A stretch of DNA of 35,310 nt from Gemmatimonadota bacterium. Lineage in GTDB: Bacteria > GCA-2686955. Within the stretch, counting starts at the first letter, position 1. Each line of letters starts with the position of its first letter. Under the pieces are notes generated by a model, which searched no databases, had not been told where the DNA came from, and saw nothing but the letters and a program-made list of their open reading frames with translations. The DNA is taken from positions 1 through 35,310 of the forward strand of contig NYZA01000176.1 in the NCBI GenBank assembly GCA_002686955.1. The letters run 5' to 3'. Below are positions 23,216-27,082 of this stretch, piece after piece. The position numbers were made by a program, and so were the translations under genes.

Positions 23216-24373
23216 TTACTCCTCGGGGAAGTTGGCGAAGATAGGGTTGGTCATCGATTTCATGTAGTTGGTGCGCGTCCCACGCAGCTCGGCCCGGACG
23301 AAGGCCCGCGCCCCAGCCTCCACGACTCCAGAGGCCCGCAGCTCCCAATTCGCCGAGTCCACGGTCCCCGACCAGACGATGCCCTGGTGGGTGTAGAGGA
23401 AAAGCTTCTCCCCCTCGCCATTCTTGACCGGCACGCGGATGTAGATCCGCGAGGGTGTGGTCACGCTGATGTTCGAGCCCATCGGCAGGTCATAATCGAG
23501 GCCGCCGTCGGCGTCGGCCCAGAGAAAGACCCGTGGGCCGCTCTCGTCGCGGGAGATGCCGAGTCTTCCGGCTTCGATCGCATCCTGTATATCCTCGGCT
23601 TGGTTGCTGGCCGCGTACACGTAGTTGCAGGGATAGAGGGGATTTAGACCGACGTAGTGCTTGTCGGAGCCACCGATCGCGCTCACGCGTCGGCCCTCTT
23701 CCAGGTGGTCCTGCCACCAACGGGCGGCCTGCTGGTTCTTGCTGGCGGCTTCGGTACCCCACCACCACGGCCCATTCCAGACCTCGATGACGTCGATGCC
23801 CGCGGAGAGCCTCTCCTCCGGCCAAGGATCGCCGTCGAAAAAGGGGTGATTCGCGACGATAGTGCCGCCCGCGGCAGTGACTCCGTCGATCATGTCCGGA
23901 ATGGAGTATCCATCCATCGGATCGGTGTCGGCCGGTACGTGGATGATGCCGGCATGCGGGCTCGACCCCCACTCCTGACCGCAGATTGGGACCATGTCGA
24001 GCACCGGCTGGAACTCGTCGTCGGAGCAACCGGCGTATGTACGGTGATCGGTCAGCACCATGGCGTCGGCACCTCGGAGCGCCGTTTCCCAGAGCAGGAG
24101 CTCGAGATCGGTCGAGGAGTCGTGGCTGTACTCGCTGTGGCAGTGGTTTGCCAGGAGGTACCAGTCGAAGCTCTCCGCTGTCGGGCACAGAGGGGAATCG
24201 GCGCGTGTGGCGTCGCCGAAGACCGCATCGATCCGCAGGAAGGGGGTGGCGAGATCTTCAGGCGCGGACTCGATCGACGCGGGGCCGATCGCCGAGGCGG
24301 TAGCTGCAGCGAGAAGCGCGATCGAGGTTGAGATTCGTGGCCCGAGCAAGGGGGCCCTGCTCTTTCGGAGCAT
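23216..24373 (-). CDS. Exported PHP-domain phosphoesterase, CehA/McbA-type
   Basis: 385 residues with a signal peptide (residues ~1-35, MLRKSRAPLL...ALLAAATASA) and a GGGAGGA ribosome-binding site before ATG 24373. The PHP metal motif NHCHSEYSHDS (76-86) is followed by 'ADAMVLTDHRTYAG', 'VPICGQEWGSSPHAGIIHVP', 'IVANHPFFDGD' and 'AIGGSDKHY', the ordered metal-binding motifs of CehA/McbA-like metallohydrolases. These cleave phosphoester or ester bonds. A C-terminal beta domain carries 'SRIYIRVPVKNGEGEKLFLY'. The next gene starts six bases after the stop, so the two exported metallo-hydrolases form an operon and may act on the same lipid or phosphoester-containing substrate. Confidence 0.85.
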   Translation of the reverse strand: MLRKSRAPLLGPRISTSIALLAAATASAIGPASIESAPEDLATPFLRIDAVFGDATRADSPLCPTAESFDWYLLANHCHSEYSHDSSTDLELLLWETALRGADAMVLTDHRTYAGCSDDEFQPVLDMVPICGQEWGSSPHAGIIHVPADTDPMDGYSIPDMIDGVTAAGGTIVANHPFFDGDPWPEERLSAGIDVIEVWNGPWWWGTEAASKNQQAARWWQDHLEEGRRVSAIGGSDKHYVGLNPLYPCNYVYAASNQAEDIQDAIEAGRLGISRDESGPRVFLWADADGGLDYDLPMGSNISVTTPSRIYIRVPVKNGEGEKLFLYTHQGIVWSGTVDSANWELRASGVVEAGARAFVRAELRGTRTNYMKSMTNPIFANFPEE

Positions 24374-24424
24374 CGTGTGTTCCTCCCGAGATGGGGTCCG
24401 GCTCCTCGCCGGCCCGCCTCTTCA

Positions 24425-24432
24425 ACGATACC
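24425..24432 (-). promoter_or_regulatory. Possible -10 element (GGTATCGT)
   Basis: Minus-strand GGTATCGT lies 52 bases before the ATG of the PHP gene; it resembles the other G-preceded TANNAT elements here but is a weak match. Confidence 0.15.
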
Positions 24433-24512
24433 CGAGCGAGTGCGTTCTGGGGCAAGTCGAGATGCCGCTGCCGCGCCGCCCTCGATCCGGCTCCGGTCCC
24501 TCGCGGGATCCT

Positions 24513-24986
24513 CTACCTCTGTGGCTGAGCGCGAGCCGAGGTCGATGCGCGGGTCGCTTCGAGCAGGTTGCCGGTGCGCGCCGGGTCGTGATGGAAGGTC
24601 GGCCAAGGCGCGCTCTCCACGTTCGCCGGTCCGGTCGTGCGCCAGGCCCAGAGCCATCCCTCGCGAGTCACGACCGCAACGTCCAATTGACCGTCACCAT
24701 CGGCCTCGTAGACATAACCGCGGCCCAGAATCGAGCTGGCCACGACCTCGAGCGTGCCGTCGCGGGTCACATAGGCCAGAGCGGGTGAGCCGGGGAACCC
24801 ACGCCCGATCCAGCGCAGAAGATCGGCGTAGAAGATGATGACCTCGTCATCGGGCTCGAGGGGTAGAGGTACCGATGCGGACTCCCCACCACAGAAGTGG
24901 CCGCCACTTCCCACAGTTTCGTAAGACTCCCGTGAGGAGCAGTCCGGAATGGTCGGAGTCGCGGAGGACCGCGTCGCCGCCAGCAT
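24513..24986 (-). pseudogene. 3' fragment of a secreted FG-GAP/VCBS-repeat protein
   Basis: Sensible sequence runs from about 'SVPLPLEPDDEVIIFYADLL' to the stop. It contains an FG-GAP-type calcium-binding loop, 'YEADGDGQLDVAVVTREG', and the common closing block 'APWPTFHHDPARTGN', both typical of the C-terminus of exported FG-GAP proteins. There is no signal peptide and nothing of the N-terminal repeats upstream of 24986. So a remnant, possibly from the same family as the fragment at 30909-31390. Confidence 0.55.
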
Positions 24987-25440
24987 CGACTGGCCGCCTT
25001 GAACATTTTCTCTCTCTTCGCCGACCCAAGAGGCGCATCACCATTTTGACATGATCGGGACACCCTGGTAAGGGGCCGCGCACGATTCGGCCGCGTCCCA
25101 CCGCGGCCGGTCCCCCGGCCCGGAGCCTCGGAATCGGGCGAGCCCATGGACCGCGACCGTCCAACCATTACCAAGGGCCGGACCGGACCCCTGGACCGCG
25201 CCGCGAAGGACACCGATCCATCTCACGGCGGACCCGCAAAACGCAGCGAACGGCCGGGGGAGACGAAGACCACTCGGGTCGCCGAGGATTCGCGATCGCT
25301 CGGGGGCGGTGCGGGAGCGAGCGTCGTCGAAGCGGTGGGACCTCGACGATCGAAGATCGATTATTCTTCCGCTAGGTGTCCCCACGCCCGACGTCGACCC
25401 TCAGGCTCGGTGAAGAAACCCGCCCTCGCCCCAGGAGACC
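24987..25440. other. Upstream region of the radical SAM operon
   Basis: About 450 bases between divergent units. Overlapping Arg-rich ORFs are not recognised. A TTATTCT-type AT-rich spot near 25362-25368 is the only promoter-like sequence before the AGGAGG at 25441. Confidence 0.45.
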
Positions 25441-25446
25441 AGGAGG
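25441..25446 (+). promoter_or_regulatory. Strong Shine-Dalgarno of the ancestral radical SAM gene
   Basis: AGGAGG with a 7-base spacer to ATG 25454. This ATG begins MPQRSN and is now separated from the radical SAM frame by a MITE-like insertion. Excising 180 bases puts it back in frame with the enzyme. Confidence 0.7.
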
Positions 25447-25453
25447 AGAGAAG

Positions 25454-25636
25454 ATGCCCCAGCGCTCTAACCCGCATTCCTCACCAACTTTCTGCTGTGG
25501 CGGCGCATCTCCGCACCCTGGCAGCACTTCCCCCCATTTCGCTTTGTGCGACGTGCAACCAGCACGCCTCAGCGCGAAACGGTGCGAAGCACCGCCGGGG
25601 CACGAATCTGCGCCCCCTCACGACGAAAGTTGGTGA
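25454..25636 (+). CDS. Leader ORF created by MITE insertion
   Basis: 60 residues, starting at the well-spaced AGGAGG/ATG, reading through the inserted element and ending at TGA 25634-25636, three bases before ATG 25640 of the radical SAM gene. Only the first five or six codons are ancestral; the rest (several Cys and His, 'FCCGGASPHPG') is MITE sequence without known function. Its arrangement would allow ribosomes loaded at the strong site to terminate and restart at 25640. The ORF itself is clear, the role is inference. Confidence 0.4.
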   Translation: MPQRSNPHSSPTFCCGGASPHPGSTSPHFALCDVQPARLSAKRCEAPPGHESAPPHDESW

Positions 25637-25646
25637 GAAATGCGGG
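25471..25646. repeat. MITE-like element inserted in the radical SAM gene's 5' end
   Basis: Terminal inverted repeats of 22 bases with one mismatch: CCCGCATTCCTCACCAACTT.. at 25471-25492 and its complement GAAAGTTGGTGAGAAATGCG.. at 25625-25646. They are flanked by direct repeats CTAA (25467-25470 and 25647-25650), as for a 4-bp target duplication, or TA within it. Interior ~130 bases without gene. Removing element plus one CTAA takes out exactly 180 bases, a multiple of three, and restores 'MPQRSNAPPSHTDVLLF' as a continuous start. Confidence 0.75.
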
Positions 25647-27082
25647 CTAACGCTCCCCCCTCCCACACCGACGTCTTGCTTTTCATGCCGCCGTACTGGG
25701 ACGTCTACGGTGATATCGACGTCCGCAAGATCGGATTCATCCTCCCCTCCCTGGGGGTGGCCTACGTCGCGAGCTACCTGAAGGGCAACGGGATCAAGGT
25801 CCGTCTGGTCGACGTGGCCTGCGCCATTCGGTCCGAGGAGGAGGTAGCGAGCACGATCAGGGAGCTCAGGCCGCGCATGGTCGGCATAACCGCGGTCACC
25901 GCCGGCATGCCGACGGTCCACCGAATCGCCCAGATCACGAAGCAGATCGACCCCGAGATCGTGGTGGTCGCGGGTGGCCCCCATCCCTCCGCCCTCCCCG
26001 CCGACACCCTCGAGGAGCCCGCCATCGACCTGGTCGTGGAGGGCGAAGGTGAGGTCCCGCTCTTGGAGCTCGCCCGCGGCACGAGCCCCGAGGCAGTGCC
26101 CGGTGTGACCTTTCGGGGACACGACGGCGGCATCGTCTCCGTGCCCCGGGGCCCACTGCTGGAGGACATGGACGCGCTCCCGGTCCCCCTCTTTGATCAC
26201 CTGCCCGTGCACGACTACGGATATCTGGTCCTGGGCAACGCGCTCCCGGTGCTCAGCGCCCGTGGCTGTCCCTTGCCCTGCACGTTTTGCGCCTCCACGG
26301 TGGTGAACCAGAGACGCTATCGGGCACGAAGTCCGGAGGCGTTCGCGGACGAGATCCGGTGGATTCACAGCCGCTTCGGGATCGATTCCTACGTCTTCTG
26401 CGACGACACGTTCACGCTGGATCAGAAGCGCACCGTCGCACTCTGTGAGGAGCTTCTACGCCTCGACTTTCCGATCCGCTGGTCCTGCATGATTCGAGCC
26501 GCGGGGCTGCGCAGATCCACCCTGGCCATCATGAAGCGGGCGGGGTGTCGCTTGGTCGAAATCGGCGCCGAGTCCGGAGACGAGGAGATCCTCGAGTCCA
26601 TCCAAAAAAAGACGAAGCTGCACGAGATTCGAACCACCGTCGATCGCGCCAAGGGCGTGGGTCTCTTGACCAATGCGTTTTTCATCCTCGGGCTCCCCGG
26701 GGAGACCCCGGAGACAGTAAAGCGAACCATCGACTTTGCGGCCAGCCTCCCCATTGATTTCGCGCAGTTCTCCATGTTCACTCCGCTGCCGGGGACCGCG
26801 TCCTGGGATCAGGTCGAGGAGTCCCCGGACATGGAGTGCATCGCCAATGATTGGAGCGATTTCTCCCGGTACCGAGGGGCCATCGTGAACTCGACCGCCC
26901 TTCCCGCGAGGGAGCTGGAGGCCCTTCATCGATCCGCCATTCGACGGTTCTACTTCCGTCCTGCGACCGCGTGGCGCTCCTTCCGTCGAATGGAGACCCT
27001 GGGGGACGTTCGACGGCTTCTCCACCAGGCCGCATCGGTGGCTAGGATGGCGCGCCTGCGCCGTCCGCAATCCGCCGGCTGA
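25640..27082 (+). CDS. B12-binding-domain radical SAM enzyme
   Basis: 480 residues. Residues 11-150 form a cobalamin-binding Rossmann-like domain ('DVLLFMPPYWDVYG', 'VVVAGGPHPSALP', 'IDLVVEGEGEVP'). The radical SAM centre is C210-x3-C214-x2-C217 (SARGCPLPCTFCAST), with 'EIGAESGDEEILESIQKK' and 'FFILGLPGETPETVKRT' as later SAM-binding motifs. Enzymes of this class do methylations or rearrangements on lipids, hopanoids, glycans and cofactors. ATG 25640 is the only start that keeps the first strand, and it lies inside a MITE repeat (TIR base A then TGCGGG); TGA 25634 blocks any earlier start in this frame. The downstream gene follows after 17 bases. Placement beside membrane and glycosyltransferase genes suggests a surface lipid or glycan substrate. 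Confidence 0.88.
   Translation: MRANAPPSHTDVLLFMPPYWDVYGDIDVRKIGFILPSLGVAYVASYLKGNGIKVRLVDVACAIRSEEEVASTIRELRPRMVGITAVTAGMPTVHRIAQITKQIDPEIVVVAGGPHPSALPADTLEEPAIDLVVEGEGEVPLLELARGTSPEAVPGVTFRGHDGGIVSVPRGPLLEDMDALPVPLFDHLPVHDYGYLVLGNALPVLSARGCPLPCTFCASTVVNQRRYRARSPEAFADEIRWIHSRFGIDSYVFCDDTFTLDQKRTVALCEELLRLDFPIRWSCMIRAAGLRRSTLAIMKRAGCRLVEIGAESGDEEILESIQKKTKLHEIRTTVDRAKGVGLLTNAFFILGLPGETPETVKRTIDFAASLPIDFAQFSMFTPLPGTASWDQVEESPDMECIANDWSDFSRYRGAIVNSTALPARELEALHRSAIRRFYFRPATAWRSFRRMETLGDVRRLLHQAASVARMARLRRPQSAG

Follow-up and report, generated by a model that had tools for sequence, protein, structure and literature searches.

In the window, that is, the whole stretch of 35,310 nucleotides that was analysed, the gene for a B12-binding radical SAM protein appears to begin inside the end of a MITE, and this MITE separates the gene from a strong Shine-Dalgarno (SD) sequence and an older ATG with which it probably used to start.

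25441..25446, + strand: old SD sequence AGGAGG, 7 nt ahead of the old ATG (from the sequence)
25454..25636, + strand: old ATG (25454) and the leader ORF that it now opens, 60 codons, with the stop TGA at 25634-25636 (from the sequence and the ORFs)
25467..25470, + strand: left CTAA of the target duplication (from the sequence and the YTAR repeats at other copies)
25471..25646, + strand: 176-bp element classed as an IS1380-type MITE by its inverted ends, its copies in the genome and its parent family
25471..25492, + strand: left terminal inverted repeat of the MITE, 22 bp (repeat comparison)
25625..25646, - strand: right terminal inverted repeat of the MITE, 22 bp, reading outward GAAAGTTGGTGAGAAATGCGGG (repeat comparison)
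25632..25637, + strand: SD-like GGTGAG that overlaps the leader stop, predicted anti-SD duplex -9.4 kcal/mol
25640..25642, + strand: new ATG within the right inverted repeat, the sole ATG, GTG or TTG that the enzyme frame has ahead of the conserved first strand
25647..25650, + strand: right CTAA of the target duplication (from the sequence and the YTAR repeats at other copies)
25640..27082, + strand: B12-binding radical SAM protein, 480 amino acids (PF02310, 2.1e-29; PF04055, 1.6e-24)

The anti-SD duplex predicted for the old AGGAGG amounts to -11.0 kcal/mol. The two arms of the MITE differ by one mismatch over 22 bp (0 matches expected from shuffled sequences), and at the right junction the leader TGA (25634), GAA and the ATG at 25640 follow each other in one frame. 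Removal in silico of 180 bp, the MITE plus one CTAA, yields MPQRSNAPPSHTDVLLFMPPYW in frame; because the element and the duplication add up to 180 bp, the reading frame is kept across the insertion, and because the right inverted repeat reads TGA, GAA, ATG in the frame of the gene, a one-piece enzyme starting from the old ATG is impossible. The layout described in the earlier note, from AGGAGG and its ATG, through the 176-bp element with 22-bp inverted ends and CTAA flanks, to the in-frame ATG in the right repeat 3 nt behind the leader stop, is present in all its parts, and the fusion of the old ATG with the enzyme upon excision was reproduced computationally.

The open stretch of the enzyme frame begins no earlier than 25637, after the leader TGA, so that ATG 25640 is the only start ahead of the first strand of the protein. 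This strand, DVLLFMPP, is kept in distant homologs, in which it takes the form K/D-VLLxxPP and lies close behind their own starts, a few residues upstream. With the element removed, the old ATG would give a protein beginning with MPQRSNAPPSHTDVLLF, and the target CTAA spans codons 5 and 6 of the gene. From this arrangement, we infer that the ancestral start was the old ATG at 25454. A search of the available collections for an empty site or a close ortholog returned none, the best homolog being 36% identical, and a scan of the genome contigs found no relative.

The MITE belongs to a large family in its own genome. With up to 3 mismatches allowed, its end is present at 77 places of the draft genome (4.28 Mb), compared with a single place for the reversed control pattern, and about a dozen copies are full-length, at 176-177 bp. 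Most of the intact copies are flanked by YTAR direct repeats (CTAG, CTAA or TTAG), mostly CTAG, and many draft contigs break within a copy. The element thus has the properties of a bacterial MITE, being short, with inverted ends, a target duplication and dispersed copies, and devoid of a transposase gene; the MITE-like identity that had been assigned to it is borne out, and the further copies of the repeat that the earlier note had expected do exist. At least 51 of the 80 counted ends in the draft genome read outward GGTGAGAAATG, GGTGAGATATG or GGTGAGACATG. In each orientation of the 176-bp consensus, two of the three frames are open, one ending in TGA-GAA-ATG and the other open throughout, so the openness of the leader is a trait of the element family rather than of the radical SAM site, and, given the combined 180 bp of element and duplication, many insertions inside genes would cause no frameshift. 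In one examined genome from the same phylum, no copies of the MITE end were detected, and a plasmid search with the MITE end alone produced only chance-level matches. Among the variants of the element, loci L095 and L101 are 54-56 bp versions that consist of barely more than the two inverted ends. At locus L012 (1440-1700), the left flank of a MITE copy encodes MRNALVLVSLLAGVGS, a signal-peptide-like ORF of 16 residues that stops at the TAG of the duplication, and on the other side of this copy lies a long, repeat-rich open frame.

The parent family of the element is found in other genomes, where at least 117 stretches contain the exact pattern YTAR-CCCGSATWTCTCACC; the listed matches come from Gammaproteobacteria, Acidobacteria, Planctomycetota, Myxococcales and others. 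The elements with these ends are often short (about 50-400 bp), and GGTGAGAAATGCGGG is the commonest outward form of the end in other genomes too. A match to PF13701 (IS1380) was obtained in 19 of 26 end-bearing genomes as opposed to 3 of 14 control genomes. The element at L237, in another genome, spans 1738 bp, with exact ends, CTAG on both sides and a PF13701 transposase (E = 1.3e-156), and a second element, L236, has the same ends, with one mismatch in each. Given that IS1380 elements possess identical ends, the window element is, as judged from its sequence, a non-autonomous MITE of the IS1380 type. An IS5-type origin, prompted by the YTAR duplication, was dropped because IS1380 elements carry the same ends. 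The direct repeats of the IS1380 family are in the range of 4-5 bp, which includes the 4-bp repeat of the window MITE. A 5-bp direct repeat is on record for IS1247 (PMC3281130). A PF13701 profile search of the own draft genome, which is rated 84.5% complete, gave no match, two short PF01609 matches were found there, and the ORF lists of end copies with other interiors contained no obvious intact transposase. With no PF13701 match in this draft, the helper transposase may have been lost, left unassembled or missed. The parent transposase with the same ends that had been anticipated is thus found in other genomes, but not in the draft genome itself.

The mRNA of the element is predicted to fold into a single long hairpin (-110.6 kcal/mol, z = -5.05), in which the new GGTGAG and the ATG at 25640 have an unpaired probability of 0.00 in the free mRNA. 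If the left arm is held open, the unpaired probability of this ATG rises to 0.82. A start hidden in the terminal stem but freed when the left arm is occupied favors leader-coupled reinitiation, and the arrangement TGA-GAA-ATG is what a coupled pair would show, the upstream ORF ending just ahead of the downstream start. Since a ribosome moving along the leader would unwind the stem and finish 3 nt before the ATG, coupled reinitiation would be the most economical route, and the predicted fold agrees with the earlier suggestion that the leader stop is suitably placed for termination and reinitiation.

We therefore propose, with a probability of roughly 0.6, that a MITE insertion and a leader-coupled restart at ATG 25640 explain the locus. 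An IS1380-family MITE would have inserted at the CTAA shared by codons 5 and 6; ribosomes would continue to initiate at the old AGGAGG-ATG, which is strong; translation of the 60-codon leader would open the hairpin, and termination at TGA 25634 would be followed by reinitiation 3 nt downstream, assisted by the overlapping GGTGAG, so that the N-terminus of the enzyme would change from MPQRSNAPPSHTDVLLF to MRANAPPSHTDVLLF. Both the use of ATG 25640 and its coupling to the leader are what we infer from this model. A search of 24300-25700 for a sigma-70-like promoter gave none, which counts against this reading, as do the openness of the leader throughout the element family and the weak or absent enrichment of in-frame starts described below.

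The same fold could mean that the insertion, by virtue of the hairpin and the leader stop, silences the gene, the open frame surviving only because the event is recent. The hairpin of -110 kcal/mol and the complete pairing of the new SD and ATG in the free-mRNA prediction speak for silencing; this reading is nevertheless unlikely, given that all 480 codons are intact although the window MITE differs at 6 of its 176 sites from the consensus built from 45 further copies in its genome, and that the leader has a strong SD, so that its translation would open the hairpin. Some of the 6 substitutions may be older than the insertion. Less probable still is independent initiation at ATG 25640, on a transcript that starts within or just before the MITE and involves no coupling to the leader: the spacing between GGTGAG and the ATG is usable (6 nt as aligned, by inspection) and the predicted -9.4 kcal/mol duplex fits such a role, but the site is hidden in any transcript that contains both arms, and the lack of a sigma-70-like promoter in the range given above applies here as well. 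Slightly behind comes the prospect that the old ATG never was the start of the gene, or that the true start lies downstream (the TTG in the first strand or ATG 25685), the MITE merely residing in a 5' leader. That no empty site came up in the ortholog and contig searches is compatible with this, but the downstream starts cut through a strand that is conserved in the homologs, and the AGGAGG-ATG joins the gene in frame upon excision. Readthrough of the UGA to give a fusion protein with a 60-residue insertion is very improbable because readthrough at UGA would be inefficient, even though the leader and the enzyme share one frame with this TGA as the single stop between them.

Donation of starts by the MITE ends is, apparently, not confined to the radical SAM gene. 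By chance, the new ATG would be placed in frame in one case of three. When the coding frame beside each end was assigned with a small codon model, genes pointing away from the ends were in the frame of the ATG in 8 of 13 cases in the own genome. Ordinary YTAR sites gave 28 of 90 (p = 0.058), and the corresponding figure for ends in other genomes, 15 of 38, was not significant. With a weak enrichment here and none elsewhere, start donation appears to be occasional, and start capture as a general rule was dropped for lack of significance. Of the earlier proposal that the repeat itself restores translation, one part stands, the repeat supplying the only start before the first strand, whereas in-frame starts next to the ends are not clearly enriched. 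By sequence, the clear candidates for start donation in this genome are the radical SAM gene and pyrF (L266, G000:C250), in which no start other than the ATG of the terminal repeat precedes the domain. The pyrF product is an OMP decarboxylase that matches PF00215 from profile position 2 (E = 5.5e-56), with the domain beginning at residue 9; the pyrF contig ends inside the repeat, and a contig with the old pyrF start was sought but not identified. A secreted propeller protein (L022) probably also takes its start from a MITE end, its signal peptide beginning at the ATG of the end, and serS and mgtE, which lie beside ends, have internal ATGs of their own.

The association of the MITEs with stop codons is the stronger result. 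In the own genome, 16 of the 21 genes that point into an end stop at the TAG or TAA of the duplication, compared with 10 of 79 at other YTAR sites (p = 4e-8; L003, L006, L017, L025, L030, L055, L096, L106, L112, L274 and others), and in other genomes the same holds for 38 of 42 cases (within L118-L240), a figure compared only with the background of the window genome. At a few of the counted sites, the duplication is changed (for example, to CTAC or TCAG), so that not all of them retain an intact stop. Domains are complete to the C-terminus at such stops in, for example, class II DAHP synthase, RibF and a response regulator. This bias could stem from the choice of target as well as from selection against the disruption of genes.

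These patterns point to a wider regularity, namely, that IS1380-type MITEs are positioned precisely at stop codons in many phyla. It is conceivable, although somewhat doubtful, that IS1380-type ends function as a portable translation adaptor across bacterial phyla, giving starts outward and, via YTAR, stops inward: read outward, an end has one frame with TGA-GAA-ATG and another that is open, and genes running into it would regain a stop codon through the duplicated YTAR. If so, insertions at gene ends, and some of those near starts, would leave genes usable, which would help explain the high copy number. Together, the start and stop patterns suggest low-cost persistence of a high-copy element in compact genomes. 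The radical SAM locus offers a concrete, testable case in which a transposon end would take over the translation start of a gene and the former start would persist as that of a leader. As a caution, starts assigned automatically in such genomes may fall within the ends of transposons.

A literature search that covered few subscription journals returned no report of IS1380-type insertion at stop codons or of a leader-coupled restart in a MITE end. The IS1380 elements (PF13701) of other genomes share with the window MITE the terminal repeats and YTAR flanks, which in their case surround a full transposase, whereas the window copy has none and none was detected in its draft genome. In integrons, a short leader ORF at attI brings ribosomes to a gene that has no good free site; the coupling works alike, but attI is not a transposon end and has no family relation to the MITE. 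The BOX repeats of pneumococci, too, are small repeats reported to encode the stop codons of adjacent genes and the start codons of expressed ORFs, but their sequence is unrelated, and the ORFs to which they donate starts have neither good SD sites nor a known function (PMC3049150). A close parallel is MITEAba12 of Acinetobacter, whose terminal repeat is reported to provide the first four residues, MQQS, of neighboring genes (PMC6382973). MITEAba12 differs from the window MITE in its size (113 bp), its relationship to ISAba12 and its mostly 9-bp duplications, and promoter donation is discussed for it, whereas the section considered here makes no mention of a leader that runs from a preserved original start and stops just before the new one (PMC6382973). 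As in the window MITE, however, the end read outward supplies a start codon, in three genomes (PMC6382973), so that start donation by a MITE end is not new in principle, and the novelty that the earlier note had suggested for it is not upheld.
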